From contig JAFUCM010000016.1 in NCBI GenBank assembly GCA_017459675.1, positions 1 to 36,369 of the forward strand: a DNA stretch of 36,369 nt. Reading direction: 5' to 3'. How positions within the stretch are numbered: position 1 is the stretch's first letter; every line of letters begins with the position of its first letter. The DNA comes from Eubacterium sp. GTDB taxonomy: Bacteria > Bacillota > Clostridia > Lachnospirales > Lachnospiraceae. This document shows, piece after piece, positions 18,613-36,369 of the stretch. Under the pieces are notes generated by a model. It saw only the letters and a program-made list of their open reading frames with translations. It ran no database searches and was not told where the DNA came from. A program made the position numbers and the translations under genes.

Positions 18613-18619
18613 TGCGGCT

Positions 18620-19696: not shown

Positions 19697-19701
19697 ATCC
19701 T

Positions 19702-20406: not shown

Positions 20407-20427
20407 AACTACATTCCTCTCTTAAAA

Positions 20428-20497
20428 GGGGCCGGCGCAGCAAACGGCCAAATGCATAAATACATCATATGCATGAAGGCGTTTACTGCGCCAGCCC
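20428..20497 (-). promoter_or_regulatory. Long imperfect hairpin between modA and modB
   Basis: On the minus strand GGGCTGGCGCAGTAAACG pairs with CGTTTGCTGCGCCGGCCC over about 16 of 18 positions, with ATGCAT/ATGCAT inside the loop. It is followed by CCTTTT, a weak T tract. It could act as a leaky terminator or an RNA stability element that lets the binding protein be made in excess over the membrane parts. Confidence 0.6.
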
Positions 20498-20507
20498 TCC
20501 CAACTTA

Positions 20508-21893: not shown

Positions 21894-21968
21894 CTGAATT
21901 CTCCCTTTTCCTGTTTCCAGATTTATCTTACTATATTCGGCGTTCTCTTGCCTGCTCTTATTCCGAAT

Positions 21969-22888: not shown

Positions 22889-22997
22889 AACATGTTTCCT
22901 CCCGGTCTGCTGCGCTCTGCTTCTGCAGCGGTGTGCCTGATGAAAGAAATTGATATCTGCTAAATCTGCTGAACTGACATTTTAGATCGAAAAGTCA

Positions 22998-23429
22998 TTA
23001 AACAATGCTGACCGGATCACCCGGATGAATCGTCCCTTCCGTCAGGACCTTTACAAAGATCCCTTCCTTCGGCATGATGCACATCCCGACCTTTTTGTAA
23101 ATCTCACAGTGCTGGTGACATTTTTTCCCGATCTGAGTAACCTCTGTCAGACATTCTCCGATCTGCAGTTTCGTTCCGACCGGAAGCGTGTGCAGTTCAA
23201 TTCCTTCTGTCGTAATATTTTCTGCAAATTTTCCGGGATCGAGGCCTTCCACGCCAAGGGCGGTCATCTTATCGATACTCTCCTGCCCCAGCAGGCTGAT
23301 CTGCCTGTGCCAGTTTCCCGCATGCGCATCCCCGATAATTCCGTGGTCAATCCGCAGTTCGGCGAACGGCACCGGATGTTTGATAATCCCTCTTCGGTCA
23401 CTGATATTGATTGCTTTTACGATTGCCAC
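22998..23429 (-). CDS. MOSC-domain protein
   Basis: A stand-alone MOSC domain of 143 residues. DHGIIGDAHAGNWHRQISLL and GKFAENITTEGIELHTLPVG are family hallmarks, and KKCHQHCEIY supplies the conserved Cys. MOSC proteins bind or transfer sulfur for molybdenum cofactors. Xanthine-dehydrogenase-family enzymes need a terminal sulfido ligand on Mo, so this protein may help sulfurate the cofactor, but that is inference. The GTG at 23429 has GGAGGATAATT upstream and sits 2 bp after the moaA stop, so it is coupled to moaA. Confidence 0.9.
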   Translation of the reverse strand: MAIVKAINISDRRGIIKHPVPFAELRIDHGIIGDAHAGNWHRQISLLGQESIDKMTALGVEGLDPGKFAENITTEGIELHTLPVGTKLQIGECLTEVTQIGKKCHQHCEIYKKVGMCIMPKEGIFVKVLTEGTIHPGDPVSIV

Positions 23430-23431
23430 AA

Positions 23432-24379
23432 TTATCCTCCGATCTGATTCATCGTCCGGTTTGAATGGAACAATTCATCAAACTGATGTTCCGCTGGTTT
23501 GGCATAGATTGCGGAACGCATCACTTTCAGTAATTGTTGTCCGTCTCCCGTAAGATACGGCATAAGCTCTGTCTCCTGTGTCCGTCCCAGACACATTTTT
23601 AATTTCCCGTCACTCGTCAGCCGGACCCGGTTGCAGTCTTTGCAGAACCTGTGGGAAATCGGACTGATCAGCCCGACACGTCCCCTGAACCCGTCTGCGG
23701 TGTAGTCCTCCGATGGCTGCGACAAATACCGCGGCTCTGCAGGATATAATTCCGGATGCCGTTCCAGAATCTCCCGGTTCATCACACGGCGTTCCCCCGA
23801 TTCTCCGAGTTTTCCAATCGGCATCAGTTCAATAAACCGGATATCCAGCGGATACTCTCTGGCCAGTCTGATAAAATCATCTGCTTCTTTGTCATTTTCT
23901 CCGCGGATCAGTACGGTATTGATTTTCACCGGAAGTTCTTCCCGGATCGCAGTCTCAACGGCGTCAAATACCTGCTGCAGATTCCCGCCTCTGGTCATTC
24001 TGCTGTAGCGCTCAGCGTCCAGCGAATCAAGACTGATATTAATCCGCTTCAGACCTGCCTGCTTCAGTTCCGGCAGCCGCGCCGCGAGCCCCTGCGCATT
24101 CGTCGTCATACTGAGATCCCTGATCTCGTCATACGCCGCAATCATCCGCACAATTTCCGTCAAATCCTTCCGCACAAGCGGTTCCCCGCCTGTCAGACGC
24201 ACTTTTCGGATCCCGAGACTGACAAACTGCCTGATCAGGATCCTGTACTGTTCTGTATTCAGTTCTTCCTTTGCCTTACAGAACGCACTTTCATCCCTGC
24301 AGTAAATGCACTTCAGATTACAGCGTTCCGTCAGAGACATTCGCAGATAATGAATATCCCTTCCCAGATGATCCAGCAC
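23432..24379 (-). CDS. moaA: GTP 3',8-cyclase (radical SAM)
   Basis: A protein of 315 residues catalysing the first step of molybdopterin synthesis from GTP. The radical SAM cluster is RCNLKCIYCRD (Cys at about residues 20, 24 and 27), followed by RLTGGEPLVRKDL. The second 4Fe-4S cluster is CKDCN plus a later Cys in LKMCLGR. The protein ends in GG, as MoaA requires. The GTG at 24379 is chosen because GAAGGAG lies 6-7 nt upstream; the open frame extends 14 codons further without a ribosome site. First gene of the block. Confidence 0.95.
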   Translation of the reverse strand: MLDHLGRDIHYLRMSLTERCNLKCIYCRDESAFCKAKEELNTEQYRILIRQFVSLGIRKVRLTGGEPLVRKDLTEIVRMIAAYDEIRDLSMTTNAQGLAARLPELKQAGLKRINISLDSLDAERYSRMTRGGNLQQVFDAVETAIREELPVKINTVLIRGENDKEADDFIRLAREYPLDIRFIELMPIGKLGESGERRVMNREILERHPELYPAEPRYLSQPSEDYTADGFRGRVGLISPISHRFCKDCNRVRLTSDGKLKMCLGRTQETELMPYLTGDGQQLLKVMRSAIYAKPAEHQFDELFHSNRTMNQIGG

Positions 24380-24429
24380 AGTACACTCCTTCCCGCGTGA
24401 TCTTTCCTCAGAATCACGCATTATCTCAT

Positions 24430-24551: not shown

Positions 24552-25430
24552 TCAGTTTGCGCCAAGGCGCAGCGGATGGCTGGTACCCATCAGGTAGTTG
24601 TAGCACTTGATTACATTATTTACCTGAACGTATTCCATCATCTCCGGCTGGCCGATATCCATCGGGCAGCGCTCTGCAAAGCTGATATTTGCTGCACACT
24701 CATCAACGCTCCAGCCCTTTGAAATGCCTGCGCTGACAGCACCGAGCCACTCATAGATAAATGCGCGCTGTTTTGCGACATAGTCTTTCTTCACAACAGG
24801 ACCGTGACCCGGAATGAAGTAATCAACATCGAGTGTATCCAGAAAATCAAGAGATTTCAGAAGTGCATCGATATCTGCGGAATGCAGCCATGTCTGGCAG
24901 TCAACAAACAGGGTGTCACCGAGAATTGCAACGCGCTCTTCCGGAACGTAAACTGCGATCTGGCATGCAGAATGTCCCGGTGTGTGATACAGCTCGAAAT
25001 GTGTATCGCCGAGTTTGAGGCTCATGTGATCGTTGAATGTGATGTCCGGACGCTCCATCATAATGTATTCTCCGCGCGGCGGCATCTTGTCGAGTCCTTC
25101 TTTATCCTGGCGCTCCAGAACGTCGATGCTGTAATCATAAGCATCAAGCGGTCCCGGCACCTTCCAGAGATCATCTGCGAGCTTCTCATGTCCGATTGTG
25201 ATTGCCTCATTTGCAAACCAGTGGTTTCCAAAAATGTGGTCGATGTGTGCCTCTGTGTTGATCAGATAGCGAATCGGGCCGCGCTCAAGCGCAAATGAGC
25301 GCATTTCCAGAAGCTTCGTCAGAATCTGTGCTGTGTCAACAAATACTGATCCCTCTGTTGTAAAAACGATACTCGGATTACATCCGCGAATCGTTGTATC
25401 GGTATAAACATTCTTTGTAACCTGCTGCAT
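24552..25430 (-). CDS. Metallo-beta-lactamase-fold hydrolase
   Basis: A soluble protein of 292 residues with the MBL fold. The metal motif reads TEAHIDHIFGN, where the usual HxHxDH has Glu in place of the first His. HTPGHS, ILGDTLF and FIPGHGP provide the later ligands. About 70 extra C-terminal residues follow the core. Family members hydrolyse thioesters, lactones or esters; the substrate here is unknown. The ATG at 25430 has GGAGGG 5 nt upstream, inside the end of the CinA-like gene. It is the last gene of an operon with an FAH-family enzyme and a VOC protein, which suggests a catabolic hydrolysis step. Confidence 0.85.
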   Translation of the reverse strand: MQQVTKNVYTDTTIRGCNPSIVFTTEGSVFVDTAQILTKLLEMRSFALERGPIRYLINTEAHIDHIFGNHWFANEAITIGHEKLADDLWKVPGPLDAYDYSIDVLERQDKEGLDKMPPRGEYIMMERPDITFNDHMSLKLGDTHFELYHTPGHSACQIAVYVPEERVAILGDTLFVDCQTWLHSADIDALLKSLDFLDTLDVDYFIPGHGPVVKKDYVAKQRAFIYEWLGAVSAGISKGWSVDECAANISFAERCPMDIGQPEMMEYVQVNNVIKCYNYLMGTSHPLRLGAN

Positions 25431-26253
25431 AAAACCCTCCATTACTTTTTCGTTTTTTTTCTTCTTTGACTTCTTTAATGATGTCCTCGCCGAGAACCTG
25501 TATACAGTTCTGCGCAATAATATTGGACATGAGCGAGGCATCTCCTCTGGTCGGCGCTGCTGCCGTGATCCGGATCAGAACATTTCCTTCCTGTGCGGAA
25601 ACTTCAACCTGCGGATTCTCCAGCTGCAGAAGATCATCCAGCCGTGCGGTCACTGCCGCCTCACTGACCCGCTCAGCGGGTGCTTCCTGCGCCGTTTTCA
25701 GCCGGACAGCGACTGTAACCAGGCTTCTGTCTACCAGATTGTGCAGATAACGGTTGACACACTGTTCAAACATATCCTGCAGTTCTTTGGGCTGCCCCGG
25801 CAGAACCACTGCGATTCTGCCGTCCTGTTCCAGAACAAATCCCGGTTCTGTGCCGAATTCATTTGTCAGCACCATGGAATCTGCCGGAATCACAGCCTGC
25901 CTGCGGTGTTCTTCCGTAAGATCCTTCACGCCGAGTGCCCGGAGCCGTTTTTCGATCTGTTCAAAAGCTTTTGCATCAAACTCCGGCTGCCTGCCAAAAT
26001 AAGATGCCAGCATTTCCTTTGTCCTCTCGTCTTTTCCGGGTCCTACGGCGCCTGCAAGAATCACCAGTTCTGCACCGTTTTTGTATGCGTCATCCAGTCT
26101 GGTTCTGATCTGACCTGCGTCATCTCCGACTACGGTCTGGCAGCAGAGGTCAAATCCAAGTTCTGCAAGCCTTCCTGCAAGATACTGCGCATTCGTATTG
26201 GCAACCATGCCAAGAAGCAATTCTGTTCCTACACTGATAATCTCTGCTACCAT
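25378..26253 (-). CDS. CinA N-terminal-like MoCF-domain protein
   Basis: The frame gives 291 residues. The first 170 match the MoCF_biosynth domain of the CinA/COG1058 type: MVAEIISVGTELLLGMVANT, AQYLAGRLAELGFD, and LAGAVGPGKDERTKEM where CinA usually has TGGLGPTKDDLT. The C-terminal amidohydrolase domain of full CinA is missing. The frame runs 53 bp past the next gene's start through an A8 tract (25453-25460). A one-base slip there would end the protein at a TAA (25442-25444) just before the next ribosome site. CinA-type domains act on NMN or ADP-ribose, but MoeA and Mog share the fold. Given the Mo-hydroxylase neighbours and the absence of moeA here, a cofactor role is possible but unproven. 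Confidence 0.75.
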   Translation of the reverse strand: MVAEIISVGTELLLGMVANTNAQYLAGRLAELGFDLCCQTVVGDDAGQIRTRLDDAYKNGAELVILAGAVGPGKDERTKEMLASYFGRQPEFDAKAFEQIEKRLRALGVKDLTEEHRRQAVIPADSMVLTNEFGTEPGFVLEQDGRIAVVLPGQPKELQDMFEQCVNRYLHNLVDRSLVTVAVRLKTAQEAPAERVSEAAVTARLDDLLQLENPQVEVSAQEGNVLIRITAAAPTRGDASLMSNIIAQNCIQVLGEDIIKEVKEEKKRKSNGGFYAAGYKECLYRYNDSRM

Positions 26254-26274
26254 AGTCCTGTTCCTTTTCTGTAT

Positions 26275-26742
26275 TTATTCTGCGTTCGGAAGCTTTCCGT
26301 CATCCCAGCGCATGATCTCGATAATGTTGCCTTCCGGATCCTTTGCATAGATGAGTGTGAGTGTCTGGCCCTTGTTCTCATAGTAATGAGAAACAATCTG
26401 TCCGTCGGAGCTTCCGCCATGTGCCAGAAGGTTGTCATAGGTTGCCTGGACATCATCCACGAGAATGCCGAGATGACCAAATCCTGCATGATTGAAGATA
26501 CCTGCGCTTCCCTCGGTGGTCTCCTGCTGGAAGATCTCGAGAACAGGGCCGCCTTCTTCGTATCCCGGGAATGCAACGTGACATCCGACGACATGTGCGC
26601 CCTTCATACCGGAAGCCTTCTCGAACCATGCGCCGCCAAGATCGCGCTCCGGCGGAACAACCTTGCCCTCAAAAACGTCACAGTAAAAATCTCTCAGCTT
26701 CTTCCAGTCTTTTGCATTCAGTTCTGTGTGATGGTATCTCAT
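26275..26742 (-). CDS. VOC-superfamily protein (glyoxalase/dioxygenase fold)
   Basis: 155 residues with the two beta-alpha-beta-beta-beta modules of the vicinal oxygen chelate fold. RYHHTELN at the start, VLEIFQQ, HAGFGHLGILVDDVQA and DPEGNIIEIMRW give the H-E-H-E metal ligand order. The superfamily includes epimerases, glyoxalases, isomerases and ring-cleaving dioxygenases; an oxygenase is unlikely in an anaerobe, so an epimerase, isomerase or lyase role fits better. The ATG at 26742 follows AAAGGAG. The CinA-like gene begins 21 bp downstream. Confidence 0.83.
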   Translation of the reverse strand: MRYHHTELNAKDWKKLRDFYCDVFEGKVVPPERDLGGAWFEKASGMKGAHVVGCHVAFPGYEEGGPVLEIFQQETTEGSAGIFNHAGFGHLGILVDDVQATYDNLLAHGGSSDGQIVSHYYENKGQTLTLIYAKDPEGNIIEIMRWDDGKLPNAE

Positions 26743-26807
26743 GTTTGTTTTCTCCTTTGTGCTGTTTTATGCTTGTTGTTTTATATAATGTTTTATTTGT
26801 TCGCCTG

Positions 26808-26881
26808 TTCAATCGCGATCTCCGATCGCGCGCGAGCTGCGCGACGCACGAAGTGCGTCTTCCTCTGCGCAGCTCTGCGAT
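26808..26881. repeat. Interspersed structured repeat, copy B
   Basis: The stretch begins TTCAATCGCGATCTCCGATC, and GAGCTGCGC pairs with GCGCAGCTC around GACGCAC-GAA-GTGCGTC. It is a close copy of 17611-17684. Here it sits inside the FAH-VOC operon. Confidence 0.78.
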
Positions 26882-26901
26882 GTCTACGCTCCGCTTCGGT
26901 C

Positions 26902-27008
26902 GGCGCTAAACGAAGGTCCACTGGACCTTCAGCGCCGCCGGAGGCTCAACTCAGATGGGGAATTGTAAGTCACCGCCTATAGAGGCGGGGCACTCCCCAT
27001 CTGAGTTG
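26902..27008. repeat. Nested hairpins between VOC and FAH genes, possible relic of a small IS-derived element
   Basis: GGCGCT-AAGGTCC (26902-26919) pairs with GGACCTT-AGCGCC (26923-26936). CAACTCAGATGGGGA (26947-26961) pairs perfectly with 26994-27008, and inside it CCGCC/GGCGG forms a smaller hairpin followed by ACTCCCC. The inner part matches the layout of the hairpin at 9253-9287. Together with copy B it makes a structured insert of about 200 bp without a gene. Confidence 0.6.
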
Positions 27009-27011
27009 AAT

Positions 27012-27986
27012 TCAGTCAACTACCTTGTTGCAGATGGTGCCGATTTTCTCAATCGTAAATTCGATCTCGTCTCCGACCTGAAGCCATCTTCCAAGCTTCG
27101 AACAGGTTGCATTTCCTTCCGGAGAAGTTCCGAGGCCGATGAAATCGCCCGGGTTCAGATATGCGTCTTCGGAAATCTGTGCGACCAGCTGTCCGAGGCT
27201 GAAGAGCATGCCGGATGTCCGGTTCTCTGTGACAACTTCGCCGTTCACGCGTGCTGTCATAGCCAGGTCATCATAGTCCGGAAGCTCATCCTTTGTTACG
27301 ACGCACGGTCCCATGATCAGGCTGTTGAAGAAGAATTTTCCTTTTGCCGGTCCGAGCGCCATAACTGCCTCATCCGCCTGCGCGTCTCTTGCGGAGAGAT
27401 CGTTGAATACGGTAAATCCTGCGACATAGTCCAGCGCTTCATCCGGCTGAATATTGCAGCCGCGTTTTCCGATATAGAAGCCCATCTCAAATTCGAAATC
27501 GAACTGCTCTGTATATTTCGGCTTATGCAGCGGTGCGCCTGTTCCTGCTACGGAATCGGTGTACTGTGTATTCCAGACCGGACGTTTATAGTACCCTGCC
27601 GGGATCTCGCCGTAGTGATGTTTTACATGACCTTCGTAAACCATTCCGTCAAAGACGATTCCCGGACGTGTAACCGGTGCAAGTACCGTAACCTCTTCAA
27701 ATGTATATACAAGCTGTTGGCCTGCAAGACCTTCCTCAGGTTTCTCATCTGATACGTATTTCAGTACTTCATAGCCTGCATCCAGACTTCTCTTTCCATT
27801 TGTAAAGAAAGTGATCATATCATTCGGCAGGTTGGCATCGGCCAGCTGCTGCGGGTTGGTATCACCCTGTGCCTCATACATCTTTCCGCCTGCTGCGTTC
27901 AGATCAATCAGCTTTCCGTCCTGTTCTGCCATCAGTCTCTGGATCGCGCCGGCAGGTGTCTTGATTTCTGTCGTATATAGCCTCAT
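27012..27986 (-). CDS. Fumarylacetoacetate hydrolase-family enzyme
   Basis: 324 residues. FDFEFEMGFYIGKRG gives the metal-binding ExE and FTVFNDLSARDAQ the third acid ligand; GKFFFNSLIMGPCVV and NPGDFIGLGTSPEG are typical of the C-terminal FAH core. The N-terminal 90 residues form a small separate domain. Family members hydrolyse or decarboxylate beta-keto acids, or hydrate 2-oxo-enoates, in ring-degradation pathways. The exact reaction cannot be assigned. ATG at 27986 with AAGGAGG upstream. First gene of the FAH-VOC-CinA-MBL operon and divergent from the gldA-like gene. Confidence 0.87.
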   Translation of the reverse strand: MRLYTTEIKTPAGAIQRLMAEQDGKLIDLNAAGGKMYEAQGDTNPQQLADANLPNDMITFFTNGKRSLDAGYEVLKYVSDEKPEEGLAGQQLVYTFEEVTVLAPVTRPGIVFDGMVYEGHVKHHYGEIPAGYYKRPVWNTQYTDSVAGTGAPLHKPKYTEQFDFEFEMGFYIGKRGCNIQPDEALDYVAGFTVFNDLSARDAQADEAVMALGPAKGKFFFNSLIMGPCVVTKDELPDYDDLAMTARVNGEVVTENRTSGMLFSLGQLVAQISEDAYLNPGDFIGLGTSPEGNATCSKLGRWLQVGDEIEFTIEKIGTICNKVVD

Positions 27987-28008
27987 GGTTGCCTCCTTGT
28001 TTTTTGAT

Positions 28009-28020
28009 ATAATCGATTAT
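28009..28020. promoter_or_regulatory. Candidate operator 1: ATAATCGATTAT palindrome
   Basis: A perfect 12-bp palindrome about 12 nt downstream of the predicted -10 box of the FAH operon, in the position of a classic repressor site. Related ATCGAT-centred sites are at 28176-28187 and 36103-36114. Confidence 0.5.
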
Positions 28021-28029
28021 CTATGATCC

Positions 28030-28057
28030 ATTATATTTAATATTTTATAAAAATCAA
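28030..28057 (-). promoter_or_regulatory. Promoter of the FAH operon
   Basis: TTGATT (28052-28057) and TATAAT (28030-28035) on the minus strand with a 16-nt spacer; transcription should start near 28023, about 37 bp before the FAH start codon. Confidence 0.65.
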
Positions 28058-28130
28058 TACGCAGATTGAACAATATTCGGCTCCGGCTTTTGTAAAAAAC
28101 AGAGAATCTACATTAAATATCTGCAGTTTA

Positions 28131-28159
28131 TTGTTTTTGCATTCTGTTTGCTATATACT
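28131..28159 (+). promoter_or_regulatory. Promoter of the gldA-like operon
   Basis: TTGTTT (28131-28136) and TATACT (28154-28159) with a 17-nt spacer on the plus strand; start near 28166. TTGAACA (28066-28072) and TGTTCAA (28161-28167) form an inverted pair across this divergent region and could be sites for an activator. Confidence 0.5.
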
Positions 28160-28175
28160 ATGTTCAATATTATCG

Positions 28176-28187
28176 TTTATCGATTAT
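28176..28187. promoter_or_regulatory. Candidate operator 2: TTTATCGATTAT
   Basis: An ATCGAT-centred, AT-flanked near-palindrome 19 nt downstream of the predicted -10 box of the gldA-like operon. It differs from operator 1 only at the first and third bases. Confidence 0.45.
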
Positions 28188-28224
28188 GTGTGATACAAGA
28201 GAGATTTTTTATGGAGGATTTGAG

Positions 28225-29319
28225 ATGAGTACAATACTTGCAGCACCGGGAAAGTACATTCAGGGACGTGGTGAATTAAAGAATCTGAGCAAACATATCT
28301 CCGCGCTCGGTACAAAGGCACTGATTATCGCCAGCGAACTTGGCGTCTCCCGCATTCAGAATGCAATGGAGGGTTCTGACACATCTGACTGTGCACTGTA
28401 TTTTGAATCATTTGACGGCGAGTGCTCGATGACTGAGATCAACCGCATGCAGGACATCTTTCACAGAGAAGGCTGCGATATTATTGTCGGCGCCGGCGGC
28501 GGAAAGGTACTTGACACTGCCAAAGCGGCCGCATGCTTCCTGCACGCTCCGTGTGTAATTGTTCCGACAGCAGTATCTTCAGATGCCCCCTGCTCTGCTC
28601 TTTCTGTCATCTATCATGATGACGGAAGCCTGGATCAGCGGCTTGCCCTTCCGAAGAGCCCGGACATCATTCTGATTGATTCCGAACTGATCGCACAGGC
28701 GCCGGTACGGCTCCTGGTTGCAGGCATGGGCGATGCATTCTCTACCTATTTTGAAGCACGTGCGTGCCACGCTTCTGCCTCCGACAATATTCACGGCGGA
28801 AAATCTTCTATTACAGCGCAGGCAATTGCGAGACTCTGCTATGATGTTCTCCTTGCAGACGGCTATAAGGCAAAGCTGGCAGTCTCCGGAAAGCTGTGTA
28901 CACAGGCAGTTGAAAATATCATCGAGGCAAACACACTGCTCTCCGGCATCGGTTTTGAGAGCGGCGGCAAGGGTGCGGCACACTCGATCGGCGACGGCCT
29001 CAACACAATTGCCGCATGCAAGGGTGTGATGCACGGTGAAAAAGTTGCTTTCGGAAGCCTTGCACAGCTGATGCTTGAAAATGTATCAGAGGAAGAGCTG
29101 GACGAAGCATTCGGCTTCTGTCTCTCCGTCGGACTTCCTGTCACGCTGGAGGAACTGGGCATCACAGAGGATGTTCAGGAGACCGTTAAAAAGATTGCAT
29201 CTGTCGCGATGCTGCCGGAAAAGAGCACCTATAACATGCCGTTCCCGGTTTCTGAGGAATCTGTCGCAGACGCGATCCTTGCCGCTGATTTATACGGAAA
29301 GGCACTGAAGCAGGCCTGA
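28225..29319 (+). CDS. Glycerol dehydrogenase-like (iron/zinc alcohol dehydrogenase family)
   Basis: A metal- and NAD-dependent dehydrogenase of 364 residues. GRGELKNLSKHI at the N terminus, VGAGGGKVLDTAKAAA (NAD-binding GGGK), VPTAVSSDAPCSALSVI, AGMGDAFSTYFEA (metal Asp), KGAAHSIGDGLN (metal His) and MHGEKVAFG (second metal His) match GldA throughout. The true substrate is probably an alcohol or ketone intermediate of the linked pathway and not necessarily glycerol. The ATG at 28225 has GGAGG about 8 nt upstream; the frame opens 13 codons earlier within the operator region. The MocA-like gene follows after 19 bp. Confidence 0.9.
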   Translation: MSTILAAPGKYIQGRGELKNLSKHISALGTKALIIASELGVSRIQNAMEGSDTSDCALYFESFDGECSMTEINRMQDIFHREGCDIIVGAGGGKVLDTAKAAACFLHAPCVIVPTAVSSDAPCSALSVIYHDDGSLDQRLALPKSPDIILIDSELIAQAPVRLLVAGMGDAFSTYFEARACHASASDNIHGGKSSITAQAIARLCYDVLLADGYKAKLAVSGKLCTQAVENIIEANTLLSGIGFESGGKGAAHSIGDGLNTIAACKGVMHGEKVAFGSLAQLMLENVSEEELDEAFGFCLSVGLPVTLEELGITEDVQETVKKIASVAMLPEKSTYNMPFPVSEESVADAILAADLYGKALKQA

Positions 29320-29338
29320 ACTGCAGAAGGACTACACC

Positions 29339-29974
29339 ATGAAATACTGCGCAGTGATCACTGCTGCCGGGTGTTCGAGCCGGATGGGAACATTTAAACC
29401 TGTTCTCCCGGTTGCCGGACGCCCGGCAATTATTCACTTAACAGAGAACCTGTTTGCGGCCGGCGTATCCCATATCGTAGTTGTTACCGGTTTCAGAAGT
29501 GATCTTATTCAGGAACTTCTGCAGAACCGGCCGGATATCTCCACCGTCCACAATCCGGACTATCAGACAACGCAGATGTTTGATTCTGCAAAAATCGGAC
29601 TGCGGGAAATACCTGAGGAATATGATCAGGTACTCCTGATTCCGGTCGACATTCCCTTCGTCCGGGAAAATACCATCCGGAAAGTAATCCGGACAGACGC
29701 AGATCTGGTTTTCCCCAGTTATCAGATGCGGCGCGGACACCCGCTGAAAATCCACCGGAAATATATTCCGCATCTGCTGCAGTACGAAGGCACGAACGGT
29801 CTTAGGGGCGCACTGAATGCGCTGCCCGCAGAACCATCTTATGTCGTTGTTGATGATCCGTTTATTATCCGCGATATGGATACCCCGCAGGACTATCAGA
29901 CATTATTACAGGAATACAGGCATCAGGAGGATTTTCGCGATGACAATGCCGCTTTCCATGTGGAACTACCGTGA
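29339..29974 (+). CDS. MocA-like molybdenum cofactor nucleotidyltransferase
   Basis: 211 residues of the NTP-transferase (MobA/MocA) fold. ITAAGCSSRMGTFKPVLPV is the nucleotide-binding motif, VVVTGFRSDLI and LLIPVDIPFV carry the metal Asp, and MRRGHPLKI the product-site loop. MocA adds CMP to molybdopterin to form the cytosine dinucleotide cofactor of many xanthine-dehydrogenase-family enzymes, the type encoded at 32158-35969, so that role fits well; specificity for CTP over GTP is inferred from context. ATG at 29339 after AAGGA. The last 35 bp overlap the regulator gene. Confidence 0.85.
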   Translation: MKYCAVITAAGCSSRMGTFKPVLPVAGRPAIIHLTENLFAAGVSHIVVVTGFRSDLIQELLQNRPDISTVHNPDYQTTQMFDSAKIGLREIPEEYDQVLLIPVDIPFVRENTIRKVIRTDADLVFPSYQMRRGHPLKIHRKYIPHLLQYEGTNGLRGALNALPAEPSYVVVDDPFIIRDMDTPQDYQTLLQEYRHQEDFRDDNAAFHVELP

Positions 29975-31385
29975 CTGGTTCCGTTCCGGAAATATCCCGC
30001 ACGTATTTTCCATCAGAAGTACGGAAAATACCATTTACGGCGTCCGTTTTCATACCCATCAGGAGATTGACGGCAACTACGCGCTTCTTTCTGAAGCTTC
30101 ACCGGATTCTGAGTACCGGACGATCCTGTCACACGGGGATGACCGGATCTTTTTCCGGGATCTGTCACCGTTTGCTGTCATGAATGAAATCAGCCGCATG
30201 CACCGCCTGATCGCACACTGGGAGAAAAAGCTGTCCGAAATCAATTTGACCCACGGGTCCCTCACAGAACTTCTTGACGAAAGCACAAAGGTTCTCAATT
30301 GTCCTCTGACAGTCAGCTTCTGTGACAGGCTCCTGGCTGTTTCCACGCAGTTTGAGAAGGAATCGCGTGCACTCTGGTCTCATTATCTGCAGTATTCTCT
30401 GGAGGATCTCATCAGAGTTCTTCCTGCTGATTCGTCTGCATACAGCCAGTATGCATCTTCCGATCCGGTTCTGATCCATACACCGGTCTATCAGGGACGT
30501 CAGTGTCTTCTCTCGAATTTCACCACTGAAAACGGGAAATACATCCGTATCACGGCATTTACAAATAAATTCCCGTTTTCTCCTGGCTCTCTGCATTTCA
30601 TGCGGCGCCTCACGGATGCAATCAGGCAGAATATCCATGATCACGACGAGCGCTACAGCGCACGTCATGTTGATCTGCACGCTTTCTTTTCAGGCTGTGC
30701 TGCAGGTCATGCCATTGACCGCGCAGCTGCACTTCAGGTAATTCACCGGCTCGGCTGGAACTGTAACGATCCCTACACCGTATTTAAAATCGCACTGAAG
30801 CATCCTTCCGATACACTTTTAATCGACAAACTTTATCAGACACTCCGGTCTGTTCCGTCTTCTGTCAGCATCCGGTACAATCACGCCGTATATCTGGTCT
30901 GCAACTGCTCCGGATCCGCATCAGAGCAGCCGGCTGACCAGATTCTGAAAAAAGCATCTGCAAGACTTTTCTCCGTCTCCCAGAGCAACATCACAACAGA
31001 TTTTCTATCTCTTCCGCAGCTGTTTCTGCAGGCGGACGAGGCATTTCTTCATGCAGTGCAGTCAGAAACATTCTTCCTGTCCTTTGCAGAAATTATGACC
31101 GACTATGTTCTGCAGCGTATTCACCATAACGCACAGGCTGAAACACTGATCCATCCGGCCGTCCGGTTCCTGCAGGAAGAAGACCACAGAAACCAGACGC
31201 AGTATGCACGCTCCCTCTTTGAATGGCTCCGGCTCGGATGCAATTACAATGCGGCCGCAAAGACGCTCGACCTGCACAGAAACACACTGGTCAGCAGACT
31301 GGACAGGATCTGTACACTGACCGGCTTAAACCTGAATGATCCGGCCGTACGCGAGTCTCTGCTGCTTTCCTTCCTGCTTTTTTAA
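29940..31385 (+). CDS. PucR/CdaR-type transcriptional regulator
   Basis: 481 residues. The C-terminal 70 residues (EWLRLGCNYNAAAKTLDLHR, then NTLVSRLDRI) are the HTH_30 domain of PucR/CdaR regulators. The middle resembles their GGDEF-like domain, and the N-terminal half is a probable ligand-sensing region with no clear family. It opens MTMPLSMWNYRDWF, which closely resembles the N terminus of the partial gene at 36288. The ATG at 29940 has AGGAGG 9 nt upstream, within the end of the MocA-like gene, so translation is probably coupled. It is the best candidate to control the flanking promoters. Confidence 0.85.
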   Translation: MTMPLSMWNYRDWFRSGNIPHVFSIRSTENTIYGVRFHTHQEIDGNYALLSEASPDSEYRTILSHGDDRIFFRDLSPFAVMNEISRMHRLIAHWEKKLSEINLTHGSLTELLDESTKVLNCPLTVSFCDRLLAVSTQFEKESRALWSHYLQYSLEDLIRVLPADSSAYSQYASSDPVLIHTPVYQGRQCLLSNFTTENGKYIRITAFTNKFPFSPGSLHFMRRLTDAIRQNIHDHDERYSARHVDLHAFFSGCAAGHAIDRAAALQVIHRLGWNCNDPYTVFKIALKHPSDTLLIDKLYQTLRSVPSSVSIRYNHAVYLVCNCSGSASEQPADQILKKASARLFSVSQSNITTDFLSLPQLFLQADEAFLHAVQSETFFLSFAEIMTDYVLQRIHHNAQAETLIHPAVRFLQEEDHRNQTQYARSLFEWLRLGCNYNAAAKTLDLHRNTLVSRLDRICTLTGLNLNDPAVRESLLLSFLLF

Positions 31386-31390
31386 TCCCA

Positions 31391-31424
31391 GAAAACAAAC
31401 ACGATGCGAAATCCTTGTTTTTTC
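31391..31424. terminator. Weak bidirectional terminator between convergent genes
   Basis: AAAACAA pairs with TTGTTTT and a T run follows on the plus strand. The stem is AT-only apart from one pair, so activity is uncertain. Confidence 0.35.
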
Positions 31425-32072
31425 TTATTTTTTATACCCTGCTGCTTCCTCTGCTTCCGGCAGATATTTGCGGAATCGGCTGTTGAAAAATGCGATCACC
31501 CTGCCGACCAGAAGGCCCGCTGCCACTGTCCCGATTCCGACCGGACCGAGGCTGTGGTTACAAATCAGGCTGATCACAAGTGCGATAATAACACTCGTAA
31601 TATCTACAATGTTCTTCCCCATACCGAGGCCGAGCCCGAAGCGCTCACCCACTGCAGCAGCAAGACCGTCCGCCGGATTCGGCGCAATTTTCATATCTAC
31701 AGAAACGGCAACACCCACCCCTGTCACAATAATCGCTAGTGCAAGAACGATCAGTTTTACCGCAATCGGACTCTCTTCTGATGTCGGGATCAGATTCGTA
31801 AATGCCGCCACAAGCCTGGTAATCCCGAATCCGACCGGAAACTGGATCAGATCAAACAGCCTGAACTTCTTCGGCAGCAGCACAAACTGCAGTACAATAA
31901 ATCCCGCATAAAACAGAAACAGCATATTGGAAAATTCCCACTGCAGCAGCCCTGACAGGACACGCGGAACCGTAAGAATCGGCGCAACGCCGAGATGACT
32001 CTTTACATTCAGCGACAGGCCAAGCGACATAACCACGATACCGGCAAGGTACCAGATGACTCTTTTTTTCAT
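31425..32072 (-). CDS. YczE/YitT-type integral membrane protein
   Basis: 215 residues with about five to six hydrophobic segments. MSLGLSLNVKSHLGVAPILT at the N terminus and KIAPNPADGLAAAVGERFGL in the middle are typical of the YczE/YyaS/YitT group (DUF6198-like). These proteins have no proven transport activity, though some sit beside regulators or transport genes. ATG at 32072 after GAGGAATCGTT. It follows the hydroxylase operon's terminator on the same strand, so it probably has its own promoter. In this setting it could carry the substrate, but that is speculation. Confidence 0.75.
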   Translation of the reverse strand: MKKRVIWYLAGIVVMSLGLSLNVKSHLGVAPILTVPRVLSGLLQWEFSNMLFLFYAGFIVLQFVLLPKKFRLFDLIQFPVGFGITRLVAAFTNLIPTSEESPIAVKLIVLALAIIVTGVGVAVSVDMKIAPNPADGLAAAVGERFGLGLGMGKNIVDITSVIIALVISLICNHSLGPVGIGTVAAGLLVGRVIAFFNSRFRKYLPEAEEAAGYKK

Positions 32073-32089
32073 AACGATTCCTCTTATAA

Positions 32090-32134
32090 CAAAACAACAG
32101 CGCAGGGACTGACTGTACTACAGACCCTGCGCTG
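32090..32134 (-). terminator. Terminator of the molybdenum hydroxylase operon
   Basis: CAGCGCAGGG pairs perfectly with CCCTGCGCTG (17-nt loop) and is followed by TTGTTTTG on the minus strand, 24 bp after the FAD-subunit stop codon. Confidence 0.85.
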
Positions 32135-32157
32135 CTTAAGTGGGTAAAACACTTAAA

Positions 32158-33033
32158 TTACGTATTGATTTTCGAAACAGCTTCCCGGATCATGTGCTTC
32201 ATATTCACATAAACCATTTCTTTTCTGTATTCAGCAGAACCTCTGACATCGGAAATCGGTTTAATGGATTCTGACGCCATCTTTGCTGCTTCCTCAATCA
32301 CATCATCTGTCAGCTTCTTGCCGACAAGATATTTCTCAACTTCGTATGCGCGAAGCGGCGTCGGTGCAACAGCACCGAGTGCTACACGTGCCTTGTATAC
32401 GCAGTCATGCTCATCAAGTCCGATTCTGACACCAACACATACGATAGAAATATCTGTATCGCCGCGGATCGCATGCTTATGATAAGCAGCTTCGCATCTG
32501 TCACCCTGCTTCGGCAGTGTGAAGCTGACAACAACCTCGCCCGGTTTCAGAACTGTTTTGCCGGGTCCGACAAAGAATTCATCAATCGGAATATCACGGG
32601 CACCGTCTTTGCCCATTACATTTACGACTGCATCCGAGATCAGGAGACCCGGTGTCGTATCAGCACTCGGTGAAGCGTTGCAGTTATTTCCGCCCAGTGT
32701 CGCACGGTTGCGGATCTGGGTACTGGAGACATGGCCTGCGCACTCTGCTACGATCTCCCACTCGCTGTCACGCAGCTCCGGCATTTTTGAAAGACTCATC
32801 AGATCATGTGTTGCGCCGATCACTGCTTTGTCATCTTCTACCTTCACCTCTTTCAGCTCCGGAATTGCAGAGATGTCAATGATCGCCTTTACCTTGAGAA
32901 CCTGTGCTTTCAGACGGATGACAACATCCGTTCCGCCTGCGACGATCTTACAGTCATCTCCATACTCCTGTAAGAGCTGAAATGCCTCTTCCAGGGTTCC
33001 GGGACGAAAATATTTATCAAATTTCATTGTCAT
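32158..33033 (-). CDS. Molybdenum hydroxylase FAD-binding subunit (XdhB/CoxM type)
   Basis: The 291-residue medium subunit of a xanthine-dehydrogenase-family enzyme, passing electrons from the 2Fe-2S clusters to FAD and then to NAD or another acceptor. IVAGGTDVVIRLK (about residue 30) and RNRATLGGNNCNASPSADTT (about residue 110) are the two FAD pyrophosphate-binding motifs. ALGAVAPTPLRA marks the C-terminal CO_deh_flav_C domain. ATG at 33033 after GGGGGAAATAGATT, 15 bp past the 2Fe-2S subunit gene. Last gene of the operon. Confidence 0.93.
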   Translation of the reverse strand: MTMKFDKYFRPGTLEEAFQLLQEYGDDCKIVAGGTDVVIRLKAQVLKVKAIIDISAIPELKEVKVEDDKAVIGATHDLMSLSKMPELRDSEWEIVAECAGHVSSTQIRNRATLGGNNCNASPSADTTPGLLISDAVVNVMGKDGARDIPIDEFFVGPGKTVLKPGEVVVSFTLPKQGDRCEAAYHKHAIRGDTDISIVCVGVRIGLDEHDCVYKARVALGAVAPTPLRAYEVEKYLVGKKLTDDVIEEAAKMASESIKPISDVRGSAEYRKEMVYVNMKHMIREAVSKINT

Positions 33034-33048
33034 AATCTATTTCCCCCT

Positions 33049-33540
33049 TTACGCCTGTGCATTCATCTGATCACGTGCAGCTTCGATCGCTTCAATGATC
33101 TTCTTGTAACCGGTGCAGCGGCACATGTTGCCGTGCATTGCTTCACGGATATCCTCTTCTGTCGCATTCGGATTCTCATCCAGCAGTGCCTTTGCAGAGA
33201 GGATCATGCCCGGTGTGCAGAATCCGCACTGAATTGCGAAATGATCGATAAATGCCTGCTGCAGCGGATGGAGGCCGTTTTCGCCCTCGAGTCCTTCGAT
33301 TGTCGTAACCTTTGTTCCCTCTGCCTGGCCGATCAGGATGGAACAGGATTTGACTGCCTTGCCGTCCATGATAACTGTGCAGACGCCGCAGTTCGAGTCG
33401 TCACATCCGTGCTTGACACCTGTCAGGCCGAGATCTTCACGCAGTACATCCAGAAGTGTTCTGTTCGGCTCTACCATCAGTTCTACCGGTTTGCCGTTCA
33501 CTTCAAATGAAACAATAATTCTGTTCTCAAATTTATTCAC
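33049..33540 (-). CDS. Molybdenum hydroxylase 2Fe-2S subunit (XdhC/CoxS type)
   Basis: 163 residues with two 2Fe-2S clusters. The plant-ferredoxin-type cluster is formed by Cys46, Cys51 and Cys54 ([10 protein letters not shown]) with Cys66. The second uses CGFC (105 and 108) and CRC (140 and 142) in [17 protein letters not shown] and [11 protein letters not shown]. The usual GCG-x-G-x-CG-x-C stretch has Asp-Asp-Ser-Asn here; this loop does vary in the family. The start is the GTG at 33540, overlapping the large-subunit stop as GTGA, with AAGGAGG about 10 nt upstream, so the two subunits are translationally coupled. Confidence 0.95.
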
Positions 33541-35969
33541 TGTGCAGACACCTCCTTAGCTTTCTTCTCTTTAATCAGTGCGAGAATACGCTCTGCCGTC
33601 ATCGGGAAGTATGTCGGACGGATGCCGACTGCATTGTAAAGTCCTTCGCAGATCGCCGGTGCGATCGGAATTGTGATGGACTCTGCCATACCCTTTGCTC
33701 CGTAAGGTCCGTCCGGAAGCGGATCCGGATTGATCATGGAGTGGAAATTCTCCTGCAGCGGGCTGAGTGTCATATCTGCGATACGGTAATCAGAAAGTCC
33801 CGTATTTGCAACCGCGCCGGTCTTTTCATTGAAAATGCATCCTTCCTGAAGGACATATCCTGCTGCCAGGATGACGCCGCCTTCGATCTGTCCCTCGACC
33901 ATCTTCGGGTTGATCGGATTTCCTGTATCTGCAGAGCAGGCAACCTGAAGCAGTTTAATCTGTCCGGTTTCCTCATTCACTGCAATCTCAATTGCTGCTG
34001 CCGCATACTGGAACCAGTTCCACATACGTTTGGTAAGTCCGTCATGTCCCCAGGAACGGATCGGTGCCGGGCAGAATACGCCGTGTCCGACGACCGGTGA
34101 GAATCTCTGCAGTCCCCAGTTGCCCTGTGCATACGGAGAGGTGTTCTTGAAGAGGGTGGAAAGTTCAATCTCCTGGATATCCGATCCCAGAATGGTTGCC
34201 TTGTCGCCGTGGATAATGACTTTGCTCTTATGTACGCCGACCTCTCTGGCTGCTGCTTCCTGCAGTTTGTCAACGACTTCCTCTGCTGCAATCTTAACAG
34301 CATTACCGGTTGTATAGGTCGTACGGGAAGAAGCGGAATAGTTATCAAACGGGGTAACGAGTGTATCTCCCTTGATTACTTTGATCTTCTCGATCGGCAG
34401 TTCCAGAACGCTGGCTGCGATCTGTGCCATAACCGTTGTAGCGCCCATACCGTTCTCGTCGCAGCTGATCATAACTTCTACGCTGGAGTCGCTGTAGTAG
34501 CGGACAACTGCCTCTGCACGTCCGAGCGGTGTGTTCTGCTTGCCGCCGACCGCACAGCCCTTACCGCGCTTCCATACCGAACCATCCTGTACGGAAGGTG
34601 TGTCGAGATCGATTTTTTCTGCGCATGCGCGGAGACATTTCTCAACGCCGATGGATGTAATCCGCTCGCCGTATCCGTTCTCGCCGCCGTTTTTGATGAA
34701 GTTCTTTGCACGGAGTTCAACTGCACTCATGCCGAGCTCGTCTGCCAGCTCGTTCATCATGCACTCCATACCGAATTCAGACTCCGGACATCCGAGTCCG
34801 CGGTACGGTCCGACCGGCATTGTATTTGTTACAACAGCTGCTGTATCCATATGAATGTTGTCGATATCATAGACACAGACAGCGCCGGAAGATGAAAGGC
34901 GTCCGGTGTAGGAAACGTTATTCTGGATTGCGCCGACTTCTTCTACGCAGTCATAATCCTGTGCGATGACGCGGCCGTCTTTTGTTGCGCCGAATTTAAC
35001 ACGGGAATAAACCGGCCATGCGTGCGGAGATCCTGTGAACTGCTCTGCACGGGTGTACTGATAGGAGCAGCTTCTCTTCAGATACAGGGACATCATTGCA
35101 CAGAGTACTTCAACGTACGGTGTAAGACGTCCGCCGAAGGAACCGCCGATGTACGGCTGAATCGTACGAACCTTTGTCTCCGGCACTTCGAAGATGTTAA
35201 CAAGTGCGGACTTGATTACACCGTGAACGCCGCAGCCGCTTCCGTATACCGTAATGCTGTCATCTGATCCGTACTTGCAGATTGCCGTTGCGAGCTCAAG
35301 CTGGCAGTGTGTTCTTCTGTCCATACAGAATTCGCGTTCGACAACAACATCTGCTTTTGCCATCGCCTCTTCTGTATTTCCCTTGTCGAGAACATAGTTA
35401 CCGACGATATTCGGAGATACACCCTCACCTGTATATTTGCTTTCAACAACATCCAGTCGCCCGATACCTGCCCACGGGTTGGAAGCATCAACTGTACCGT
35501 CGCCATGACCGGAAGCCGGGTCGATAATGGACTTCGGATTCGGATCAAGAGCTTCATAGACGTTCAGAATATGCGGCAGCTGCTCGTATTCAAGTTCAAT
35601 CGCATTCACTGCGTCCTCAGCAAGTTCAACGCTCTCTGCGGCAACGATTGCGATCGGCTGGCCTGCCCAGATACACTCGCCGTCAATCGGAAAACGGACA
35701 GACTCCGGAAGTCTTTCCATGTGGAACGGAGAACGCTCCATCGTAAAAATTTTCGCAACACCCGGCATTGCTTCCGCTTTGCTCAGGTCCAGTTTTGTGA
35801 TCTTACAATGTGCAACCGGGCTGCGCAGGATCTTTACATACAGCAGATCCGGAATGAACTTATAATAATCACTTGCAAACAGCCCCTTGCCAGTTGCCTT
35901 GTCATACGCATCTACACGAGTAGGTGTTTTGCCAATGTAACTGGTTTTTTCATTTGACGTATTGCTCAC
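33537..35969 (-). CDS. Molybdenum hydroxylase catalytic large subunit (XDH/aldehyde oxidase family)
   Basis: 810 residues, typical of the Mo subunit in three-subunit enzymes. The a/b hammerhead domain occupies about the first 130 residues (TGKGLFASDYY). Mo-cofactor contacts are visible at QPYIGGSFGGR (275-280), GPYRGLGCPESEF (387-391) and GAKGMAESITIPIAPAI, where Glu at about 763 is the conserved active-site base. These enzymes hydroxylate C-H bonds next to ring nitrogens or carbonyls with water, and some run reductively to dehydroxylate phenols. The motif AKGMAES differs from the AKGVGEPP of many purine or nicotinate dehydrogenases, so substrate transfer from those families is unsafe. The GTG at 35969 has AGGAGGT 6 nt upstream; an upstream frame to 36032 has none. 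Confidence 0.93.
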   Translation of the reverse strand: MSNTSNEKTSYIGKTPTRVDAYDKATGKGLFASDYYKFIPDLLYVKILRSPVAHCKITKLDLSKAEAMPGVAKIFTMERSPFHMERLPESVRFPIDGECIWAGQPIAIVAAESVELAEDAVNAIELEYEQLPHILNVYEALDPNPKSIIDPASGHGDGTVDASNPWAGIGRLDVVESKYTGEGVSPNIVGNYVLDKGNTEEAMAKADVVVEREFCMDRRTHCQLELATAICKYGSDDSITVYGSGCGVHGVIKSALVNIFEVPETKVRTIQPYIGGSFGGRLTPYVEVLCAMMSLYLKRSCSYQYTRAEQFTGSPHAWPVYSRVKFGATKDGRVIAQDYDCVEEVGAIQNNVSYTGRLSSSGAVCVYDIDNIHMDTAAVVTNTMPVGPYRGLGCPESEFGMECMMNELADELGMSAVELRAKNFIKNGGENGYGERITSIGVEKCLRACAEKIDLDTPSVQDGSVWKRGKGCAVGGKQNTPLGRAEAVVRYYSDSSVEVMISCDENGMGATTVMAQIAASVLELPIEKIKVIKGDTLVTPFDNYSASSRTTYTTGNAVKIAAEEVVDKLQEAAAREVGVHKSKVIIHGDKATILGSDIQEIELSTLFKNTSPYAQGNWGLQRFSPVVGHGVFCPAPIRSWGHDGLTKRMWNWFQYAAAAIEIAVNEETGQIKLLQVACSADTGNPINPKMVEGQIEGGVILAAGYVLQEGCIFNEKTGAVANTGLSDYRIADMTLSPLQENFHSMINPDPLPDGPYGAKGMAESITIPIAPAICEGLYNAVGIRPTYFPMTAERILALIKEKKAKEVSAQ

Positions 35970-36102
35970 AATATTACCTCCTCTTCCTGAAAGATTTGTC
36001 TGTATTATAAAAAATACGTCTCCCTGCAACATCGTTCATATCCGCTATTTTTCGTCAGGTTCCTGTGCATGAATTGGCACTTCCATCTATTAAATATGAT
36101 AT

Positions 36103-36114
36103 ATGATCGATAAT
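36103..36114. promoter_or_regulatory. Candidate operator 3: TATGATCGATAAT region
   Basis: ATCGAT at 36106-36111 lies 9 nt downstream of an extended -10 box (TGCTAAAAT on the minus strand, TAAAAT at 36121-36126) that probably drives the hydroxylase operon. It has the same centre and AT-rich flanks as the sites at 28009 and 28176. Confidence 0.4.
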
Positions 36115-36120
36115 ATATAA

Positions 36121-36129
36121 ATTTTAGCA
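36121..36129 (-). promoter_or_regulatory. Extended -10 element, probable promoter of the hydroxylase operon
   Basis: On the minus strand TGCTAAAAT matches the TGnTATAAT extended -10 pattern at five of six box positions. No good -35 box is visible at the usual distance, which would fit an activator-dependent promoter. The leader to the GTG at 35969 would be about 145 nt. Confidence 0.4.
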
Positions 36130-36154
36130 CCGAACCGCTGTTTTTATATGGATT

Positions 36155-36275
36155 TTGCGCACAGTCTACATCCGCATATTGTGCATTGATTTAATTGTTA
36201 TGAAATTGACGAATTTTTGTGCGGGTTTTATAATAATTTCAAAAAGATGAACTGTAATATAATGCAAATTGCGCA
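36155..36275. promoter_or_regulatory. Four TTGYGCR motifs in the hydroxylase/regulator divergent region
   Basis: TTGCGCA at 36155, TTGTGCA at 36179, TTGTGCG at 36217 and TTGCGCA at 36269 lie within 121 bp, flanking the plus-strand promoter. Repeated half-sites of this kind could bind one of the PucR-type regulators. Confidence 0.3.
36206..36234 (+). promoter_or_regulatory. Promoter of the second PucR-type regulator
   Basis: TTGACG (36206-36211) and TATAAT (36229-36234) are 17 nt apart on the plus strand, about 50 bp before the ATG at 36288. Confidence 0.8.
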
Positions 36276-36287
36276 TGGAGGCACTGC

Positions 36288-36369
36288 ATGCTTTTTTCAC
36301 TCTGGAATTTCAAAGACTGGTTTGACCGGGAAGGAATCGAACTCTCTTATATGATCAGCCGGACAGCTG
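36288..36369 (+). CDS. Second PucR/CdaR-type regulator, 5' fragment
   Basis: Only the first 27 codons lie in the window. They read MLFSLWNFKDWFDREG and continue in frame to the end. LWNFKDWF aligns with MWNYRDWF at the start of the regulator at 29940, so the two are probably paralogues. ATG at 36288 with GGAGG 6 nt upstream and a strong promoter before it. It diverges from the hydroxylase operon, the usual place for that operon's own regulator. The domain content beyond the edge is unseen. Confidence 0.6.
   Translation, partial: MLFSLWNFKDWFDREGIELSYMISRTA

Follow-up and report, generated by a model that had tools for sequence, protein, structure and literature searches.

An XDH-family molybdenum enzyme with an altered active site in a probable single-regulon island of a Eubacterium genome

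The window analysed here, meaning the whole stretch of 36,369 bases, is the complete contig C59 of a Eubacterium sp. metagenome-assembled genome (MAG; G000, 2.98 Mb in 220 contigs, completeness 91.79%, contamination 6.85%), whose congener G004 is filed as an uncultured Lachnospiraceae bacterium. The window carries a molybdenum-hydroxylase island, in which the three subunits of a xanthine dehydrogenase (XDH)-family enzyme, XdhABC, lie close to genes for a fumarylacetoacetate hydrolase (FAH)-family enzyme, a VOC protein, a metallo-beta-lactamase (MBL)-fold hydrolase, a GldA-like dehydrogenase and a CinA-like protein. An earlier note on this DNA had listed these genes and proposed that they serve one pathway. 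We assign a probability of roughly 0.6 to the joint claim that the large subunit, XdhA, belongs to an isolated clade with an altered active site, that a shared operator stands over both operons, that XdhA and the MBL hydrolase form a core joined by an exchangeable module, and that the role of the whole is catabolic. The features of the locus are as follows.

36288..36369, plus strand: PucR2, the 5' part of a second PucR-type regulator gene, truncated at the contig end.
36103..36114, no strand: operator-like site between xdhA and PucR2 (position weight matrix (PWM) score 14.9, shuffle p = 0.0075).
33537..35969, minus strand: XdhA, molybdenum-cofactor subunit, probable extent within the open reading frame (ORF) 33537-36032 (MoCoBD_1 205.8 bits, MoCoBD_2 184 bits, alignment, tree).
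33049..33540, minus strand: 2Fe-2S subunit (NCBIfam; identity 77-91% among seven island genomes).
32158..33033, minus strand: FAD subunit (NCBIfam).
31425..32072, minus strand: YczE/DUF6198-like membrane protein (NF052291 41.9 bits of 205; PF19700 37.1 of 27).
29940..31385, plus strand: first PucR-type regulator, complete (HTH_30 55.6 bits).
29339..29974, plus strand: MocA-like cofactor nucleotidyltransferase (NF045665 195 bits and TIGR03310 136.2 bits, the latter with cut-off 186.45, both below cut-off).
28186..29319, plus strand: GldA-like dehydrogenase (NF006941 468 bits, above the cut-off of 336).
28169..28187, no strand: operator array upstream of GldA (PWM 15.4 and 15.0, training sites).
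28009..28034, no strand: operator array upstream of FAH (exact ATAATCGATTAT and 7-bp-spaced repeats; PWM 19.6, training site).
27012..27986, minus strand: FAH-family enzyme (PF01557 180.3 bits, gathering score 23.9).
26275..26742, minus strand: VOC protein (Glyoxalase PF00903; identity 83-97% in five genomes).
25378..26253, minus strand: CinA-like protein with MoCF and KH domains (TGGLGPTKDD motif degenerate, AGAVGPGKDE).
24552..25430, minus strand: MBL-fold hydrolase (Lactamase_B).
21555..24421, minus strand: moaA, mosC, mogA, modE and a flavodoxin-like protein (syntenic in G014 and G004).
17927..21530, minus strand: modABC and moaC (window ORFs; comparison with G004 and G014).

Every island gene listed is an open frame at these coordinates with family matches in NCBIfam and Pfam, so the gene list of the earlier note, with its adjoining mod/moa genes, stands in full except for the second of its two PucR regulators, of which the contig end leaves a 5' start. 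Neither a tRNA nor an Rfam match above the gathering score was found in the window. XdhA probably starts at the GTG at 35969, which is preceded by GGAGGT; residues C267, L413, M529 and E784 are numbered here on the 831-aa ORF starting at 36032. Comparison with relatives places the first PucR start probably near 29940 and that of the MBL hydrolase near 25430. The complete PucR shares 22-35% identity with its best matches in island genomes, and the N-terminus of PucR2 (MLFSLWNFKDWFD..) resembles PucR2 genes divergent from xdhA at three other island loci (L045, L046, L047). Relatives of the YczE-like protein occur next to MBL in L042 (58%) and next to modA in G004 (41%).

The MoCoBD_1 and MoCoBD_2 domains, together with the 2Fe-2S and FAD partners, place the island enzyme in the xanthine oxidase family, and XdhA stands far from the characterised members. 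None of the 13 NCBIfam families that it matches attains its cut-off: the best score, to the purine equivalog NF043082, is 370.6 bits (cut-off 780), followed by 359.9 bits to TIGR03194, the 4-hydroxybenzoyl-CoA reductase family (994.55), and 346.7 bits to the purine equivalog PRK09970 (916). The large-subunit tree that the earlier note had called for was built from 48 rows, which include E. coli XdhA, XdhD and PaoC and 4-hydroxybenzoyl-CoA reductase and no row for nicotinate dehydrogenase or the urolithin C enzyme Ucdh. In this tree the seven island XdhA proteins form one clade (support 100/100, stem 1.86 changes per site) apart from all four of these enzymes. The sister row is a Rhizobium plasmid protein (93/85) on a long branch, a placement that we regard as unsure.

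Active-site columns were compared in a MAFFT alignment of 47 proteins (7 of the clade, 40 others), from which near-duplicates and the truncated L030, L047 and L057 were excluded. The column that we take to be bovine Gln767 holds Gln in all 40 outside proteins and Cys in all seven of the clade, and Cys267 is invariant in 8/8 clade members in a separate comparison that includes L047. Four solved homologues (1rm6, 4zoh, 8uem, 1t3q) also carry Gln in the loop. Two further motifs changed in every clade member: GQG/GTG became GMG, with M in 0/40 others, and RGFG/RGYG became RGLG, with L in 0/40 others. The catalytic Glu (E784), presumably the counterpart of bovine Glu1261, was kept in 47/47. An Arg at the position of bovine Arg880 was dropped as a further kept residue, no bovine row having been aligned and E. 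coli XdhA and XdhD having Ser and Cys there. As read from these sequences, the clade loop (GSGCGVHG or alike) surely lacks the Gln. Family scores, tree and active-site columns support the proposal that XdhA is something other than a characterised purine enzyme. The individual parts belong to known superfamilies, and we class the whole as a new XDH subfamily under a probable regulon of its own.

That regulon was traced through the gap between FAH and GldA, which in 5/5 genomes shares the 12-bp ATAATCGATTAT with repeats at 7-bp steps. A PWM was built from 18 12-mers in these five gaps, with p-values from 400 Markov shuffles. This matrix detects a site in the xdhA-PucR2 gap of 7/7 genomes, each at p 0.0025 to 0.010, and 19 of 26 gaps outside the training set reach p ≤0.010. 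Passing gaps include those of GntR in G801, G804 and G799 (13.1), moaC in G004 and G802 (13.5), mosC in G799, MocA-CinA or MBL in G799, G801 and G804, and, on C200, another contig of the window's genome, moeA (16.6, p = 0.0025). The window itself has four sites scoring at least 14 (28009, 28169, 28176 and 36103), all within the FAH-GldA and xdhA gaps; 13 control loci totalling 208,950 bp have two. An independent count allowing up to two mismatches gave 6 matches in the window against 1.72 expected (1/100 shuffles as high), five of them in those gaps. Given this common operator, and given that the window's strong sites are confined to two gaps, the xdhA operon and the FAH-VOC and GldA-MocA-PucR operons probably belong to one regulon. 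The proposal of one pathway for both operons gains support from the same operator and from the presence of FAH in both XdhA-bearing genomes among the 397 of the family. The GntR protein is a better candidate regulator than the others, though a candidate only, since operator sites lie upstream of its own gene in G801 and G804 (scores of 16 or more) and, more weakly, in G799.

In G801 (L090:1809-7693), a gap with three sites scoring at least 14 lies between divergent genes for a sigma-54 regulator and an E1-E2 complex of the pyruvate/acetoin-dehydrogenase type; this complex seems, by its operator sites, to lie within the same regulon. A link to acetoin was kept out of the main claim, as the E1-E2 complex was not seen in the examined stretches of other island genomes.

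We then asked which genes accompany XdhA. FAH at 76-90% identity is present in G000, G004, G014, G800 and G802. Among the eight XdhA-clade genomes, four have FAH, three have a set based on a 3-hydroxyacyl-CoA dehydrogenase (HADH), and one has neither, so that co-occurrence of the two operons, whose failure the earlier note had named as evidence against its pathway, holds in half; the constant partner of XdhA is instead MBL. No FAH relative was found at 1e-10 in G799 (L042), G804 (L048) or G801 (L045), where an HADH-type dehydrogenase adjoins the XDH-MBL set; that of G801 is only 43-47% identical to those of G799 and G804, and the latter two genomes add a lactonase-like MBL protein, a Zn-dependent dehydrogenase and a glycyl radical enzyme with its activase. 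In G803 neither cassette was seen, and the contig ends inside xdhA. MBL occurs in 8/9 island genomes, a set that counts G014 besides the eight XdhA genomes, and only G803 lacks it; it was found in 0/3 congeners lacking XdhA and in 1/245 genomes of the class, the window's own. The G004 genes combine both types: its MBL is 87% identical to that of G799 and 61% to the window's, and its flavodoxin-like gene 67-73% to the G799 and G804 versions versus 53%, despite which it carries window-type FAH, VOC and GldA. At least two module changes are needed on the XdhA tree and on the MBL tree, and starred branches force two and one, respectively. We interpret these sequence comparisons as an invariant first half, XdhA and MBL, to which different second halves can be attached.

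The glycyl radical enzyme is encoded in two genes in two genomes (L042:2840-5419 and L089:10091-12670): the larger part, of 755 aa, has the GCVEP motif and terminates at a stop codon, and the glycyl radical loop RVAGYSVYF sits in a second ORF of 100 aa that follows a ribosome-binding-site-like sequence (Gly_radical 72.6 bits in the L089 copy). In G004 an orphan protein of 116-127 aa with a transketolase C-terminal domain follows NifS (L034:1779-2162); G804 has one within its HADH set (L089:15657-16007), L045 and L046 show shorter matches after the FAD subunit, and no such match was seen in the window.

The island recurs across genera. The run MocA-GldA-FAH-VOC-CinA-MBL-moaA-mosC-mogA-modE-flavodoxin-modABC-moaC is intact in G014, of a different genus, where XdhA was not found in the genome and the contig begins within MocA. 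The window's island genes lie in G004 on one 31.6-kb contig together with NifS, XdhC-family, MoeA-like and GntR genes, and in G800 and G802 FAH, VOC, GldA, CinA and MBL keep the same order on contigs other than XdhA's. A scan of GTDB genomes found seven loci with XdhA 80-86% identical, all MAG-derived and one of them G004. The holders are mostly animal-gut as far as records go, including a horse-faeces MAG, and several bear RUG, SUG or RUI names, which we take to be those of rumen catalogues. In scans by taxon, XdhA at E ≤1e-120 occurs in 2/397 genomes of the family (the window's and G004), FAH in 3/397, including both XdhA bearers, and the 2Fe-2S subunit at 1e-68 in 1/392 genomes of the order, the window's own. 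A scan of the class gave XdhA in 9/391 genomes at 1e-90, eight of them distant (31-35%), the level of identity at which the next-best relatives follow the clade.

Nonsynonymous divergence (dN) is 0.03-0.17 for XdhA, 2Fe-2S, FAD, MBL, FAH, VOC and GldA in the pairs tested, with synonymous divergence (dS) from about 1 to saturation; HADH (0.18), CinA (0.12-0.22), MocA (0.46) and PucR (0.70) are looser. Because gene order recurs in G014 and dN lies far below dS for XdhA, MBL, FAH, VOC and GldA, the gene set is non-random, and coincidental neighbours are ruled out by cross-genus synteny, co-occurrence and the shared operator. Horizontal transfer of the island is likely, since the order of XdhA identities to the window conflicts with that of the housekeeping gene nth (nth/XdhA 83%/81% in G004, 54%/87% in G802 and 37%/83% in G804); it is not proven, as nth is a single gene that matches only partly in G802 and may be a paralogue in G804. 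There is no sign of recent transfer into the window's genome, the GC content of the island (0.497) being close to that of the first 15.5 kb (0.505); island loci span 0.41-0.61.

Immediately next to moaC, the G004 island passes into a cluster of bacterial-microcompartment/ethanolamine type (L034:10232-16592; EutP, BMC protein, EutH, PTAC).

Further maturation genes lie on contig C200 of the window's genome, where MosC-, MogA-, MoeA-, NifS-, XdhC- and GntR-like genes are matched at 34-52% by G004 proteins; its mosC and mogA are 53% and 47% identical to the window's copies. By this comparison, C200 and the window together are the supply set that G004 has on one contig. A second XDH large subunit on C200 (L037:9303-10830) is in pieces and abuts a truncated mosC. 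The CinA TGGLGPTKDD motif is lost in 5/8 island genomes with the gene retained, which suggests that the CinA-like protein binds rather than catalyses. The metal-site motifs of MBL (ExHxDH with Glu for the first His, PGH, GD, GHGP) are kept in 8/8.

Collectively, these data are consistent with one regulon that would direct the anaerobic breakdown of one class of small organic compound in scattered Clostridia-type MAGs; the ring-type or keto-acid substrate of the earlier note is likewise a proposal. In the scheme that we find most likely, XdhABC would use a sulfurated molybdopterin cytosine dinucleotide cofactor made by MocA and the XdhC- and NifS-type proteins of C200, and would oxidise a CoA-free oxygenated carbonyl or oxygen-ring compound. 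MBL may hydrolyse its product, a lactone or other ring, which VOC would isomerise, and FAH would cleave or decarboxylate the oxo-enoate or 1,3-dicarbonyl so formed; the probable products are pyruvate, or an acid like it, and a small carbonyl that GldA could reduce, balancing NADH. The effector would be sensed by the GntR protein, the PucR pair or both. We hold this exact chemistry, taken alone, to be doubtful. No CoA ligase, carbamoyltransferase or deaminase was found among the family matches of the scanned island genes, which disfavours benzoyl-CoA-type and purine-type routes, although other contigs may hold further steps. Among open-licence PMC papers listed on the FAH-XDH combination, gut XDH dehydroxylases, gut XDH-family enzymes without an assigned function, ergothioneine, molybdenum hydroxylases with glycyl radical clusters and split glycyl radical enzymes, none described this island.

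The island FAH has the PF01557 fold, and its top solved relative is an HpaG-type isomerase/decarboxylase followed by further FAH-family enzymes; HpaG/HpcE and diketo-deoxyrhamnonate hydrolase are its nearest characterised kin, yet it attains no equivalog cut-off. The HADH module recalls the phloroglucinol pathway of Clostridium scatologenes, in which CoA-free ring opening precedes a 3-hydroxyacyl-CoA-dehydrogenase-type enzyme (PMC10470551). That pathway employs a reductase, a hydrolase of the 'cyclase' family and an enzyme that cleaves a keto acid (PMC10470551), and no family match in the window's island corresponds to any of the three; a phloroglucinol-type pathway was accordingly rejected, its dehydrogenase step being similar and its remaining enzymes not seen among those matches.

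The alternative that survives best is that MBL, the CinA-like protein and the flavodoxin-like protein are maturation or electron-transfer partners of XdhABC and only VOC-FAH-GldA, or the HADH set, is catabolic. MBL and the flavodoxin-like gene accompany XdhA with either module, and CinA has a MoCF fold along with its frequent motif loss, as such partners might. The intact metal site of MBL speaks for an active hydrolase instead, and to our knowledge MBL proteins are not known as molybdenum-cofactor factors. We consider this division of labour unlikely, and prefer MBL as a catabolic step.

Somewhat less probable still is a reductive dehydroxylase of a plant phenol, comparable to 4-hydroxybenzoyl-CoA reductase or Ucdh. 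The former (1rm6), with separate subunits and the XDH fold, is the closest solved relative of XdhA by sequence, its alpha subunit being the top solved homologue at just 263-275 bits, and the horse-faeces holder would fit a plant-derived substrate. A gut Clostridium uses the XDH-family Ucdh on urolithin C, and the enzyme is co-expressed with genes for molybdate uptake, cofactor synthesis and XdhC, according to the part of the report at hand (PMC12771579). That part describes a cluster with a methyltransferase and a transporter and mentions no FAH, VOC or MBL (PMC12771579). In contrast to the clade, 4-hydroxybenzoyl-CoA reductase retains the Gln and GQG, acts on a CoA thioester and sits elsewhere in the tree, and the island genes include no thioester-forming CoA ligase. 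The downstream hydrolases and dehydrogenases also suit breakdown of a carbon skeleton better than a lone dehydroxylation.

A further reading, which we find quite improbable, has the island degrade an N-heteroaromatic, for example vitamin B6 or a related compound: XDH would hydroxylate the ring, and a lactonase and an HADH-type enzyme would act in the manner known from the aerobic degradation of pyridoxine. The top solved relative of the L042 HADH is indeed 4om8, the FHMPC dehydrogenase of vitamin B6 breakdown (115.7 bits), and the best NCBIfam match of the L042 lactonase is 4-pyridoxolactonase (63.8 bits). However, both matches are weak and barely exceed generic ones (103-109 bits for solved 3-hydroxybutyryl-CoA dehydrogenases, 61.3 bits for AiiA), the NCBIfam score for 3-hydroxyacyl-CoA dehydrogenase (174.4 bits) is above that for FHMPC dehydrogenase (155), and the lactonase's top solved relative is a different protein (8x78, 109 bits). 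HADH relatives in the window's genome are only 35% and 24% identical and lie off the island.

Least credible is the reading of XdhABC as an ordinary purine or nicotinate dehydrogenase whose neighbours are there by accident: although XdhABC shares with xanthine dehydrogenase its subunit make-up, its MocA/XdhC/NifS-type accessory genes and the Glu column, and although four of the five neighbourhoods examined by eye around the nearest outside proteins (L035, L060-L063, all but L062; five rows of the tree's seven-row purine-neighbourhood group) hold purine/allantoin-type genes (carbamate kinase and carbamoyltransferase, or permease/fdrA/DUF1116-type), XdhA lies, in a tree that has no nicotinate dehydrogenase row, in a clade apart from that group and from E. 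coli XdhA and XdhD, the three motif changes separate it from all 40 outside proteins, FAH shares its operator, the window has no purine ring-opening genes, and the molybdenum subunit of Eubacterium barkeri-type nicotinate dehydrogenase (3hrd) is split into chains of 425 and 330 residues, unlike the single frame of about 810 codons of XdhA. The purine markers ygfK, ssnA and hydantoinase are absent from the window, as had been noted; the rest of the genome was not searched for them.

Several points weigh against a catabolic regulon built around XdhA and MBL. FAH is absent from half of the XdhA genomes, the island contains no transporter (transporters may be on other contigs), MBL and CinA could act in cofactor maturation, and the named holders are MAGs, in several of which contigs terminate within the island. 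The residue that replaces the Gln is alignment-dependent, being Cys267 by MAFFT and Gly268 by HMMER against 4-hydroxybenzoyl-CoA reductase; gap placement is ambiguous because the clade's loop is one residue longer than in other rows. The motif seed was not chosen blind, the xdhA and FAH-GldA gaps having been viewed together beforehand, and, apart from the complete xdhA set, the p-values are too favourable since the 26 gaps were listed after hits were seen. Seven of these 26 miss p 0.010; failing gaps are, in the window, moaC, modA (p = 0.032), VOC (9.3, p = 0.020), moaA-MBL and PucR/YczE, and elsewhere GntR on C200 (8.2, p = 0.13) and moaC in G803 (11.0, p = 0.077).

Gut XDH-family enzymes are being matched to diet-derived compounds one after another, and the island set offers a clear target: a clade outside the NCBIfam families, an XdhABC and MBL core, an operator with which to find the remaining regulon, and a pair of alternative cassettes, which narrow down what the intermediate can be. 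We tentatively entertain a bolder possibility, in which the clade would represent new XDH-family catalysis, with the Gln next to molybdenum gone and probably Cys instead, feeding an undescribed CoA-free anaerobic pathway with a plug-in second half (FAH-VOC-GldA, or HADH-type dehydrogenase, lactonase and split glycyl radical enzyme) and one operator over all. If the lost Gln matters, the view of which residues the family's molybdenum site requires would change.

Outside the island, an IS200/IS605-like tnpB/tnpA pair (15569-17384) lies by eye between a hipA-like gene and moaC, just beyond the conserved block. Short mid-protein tandem repeats were likewise seen by eye in a MazG-like protein (13256-13873) and a diacylglycerol-kinase-like protein (7264-8370) of the window.

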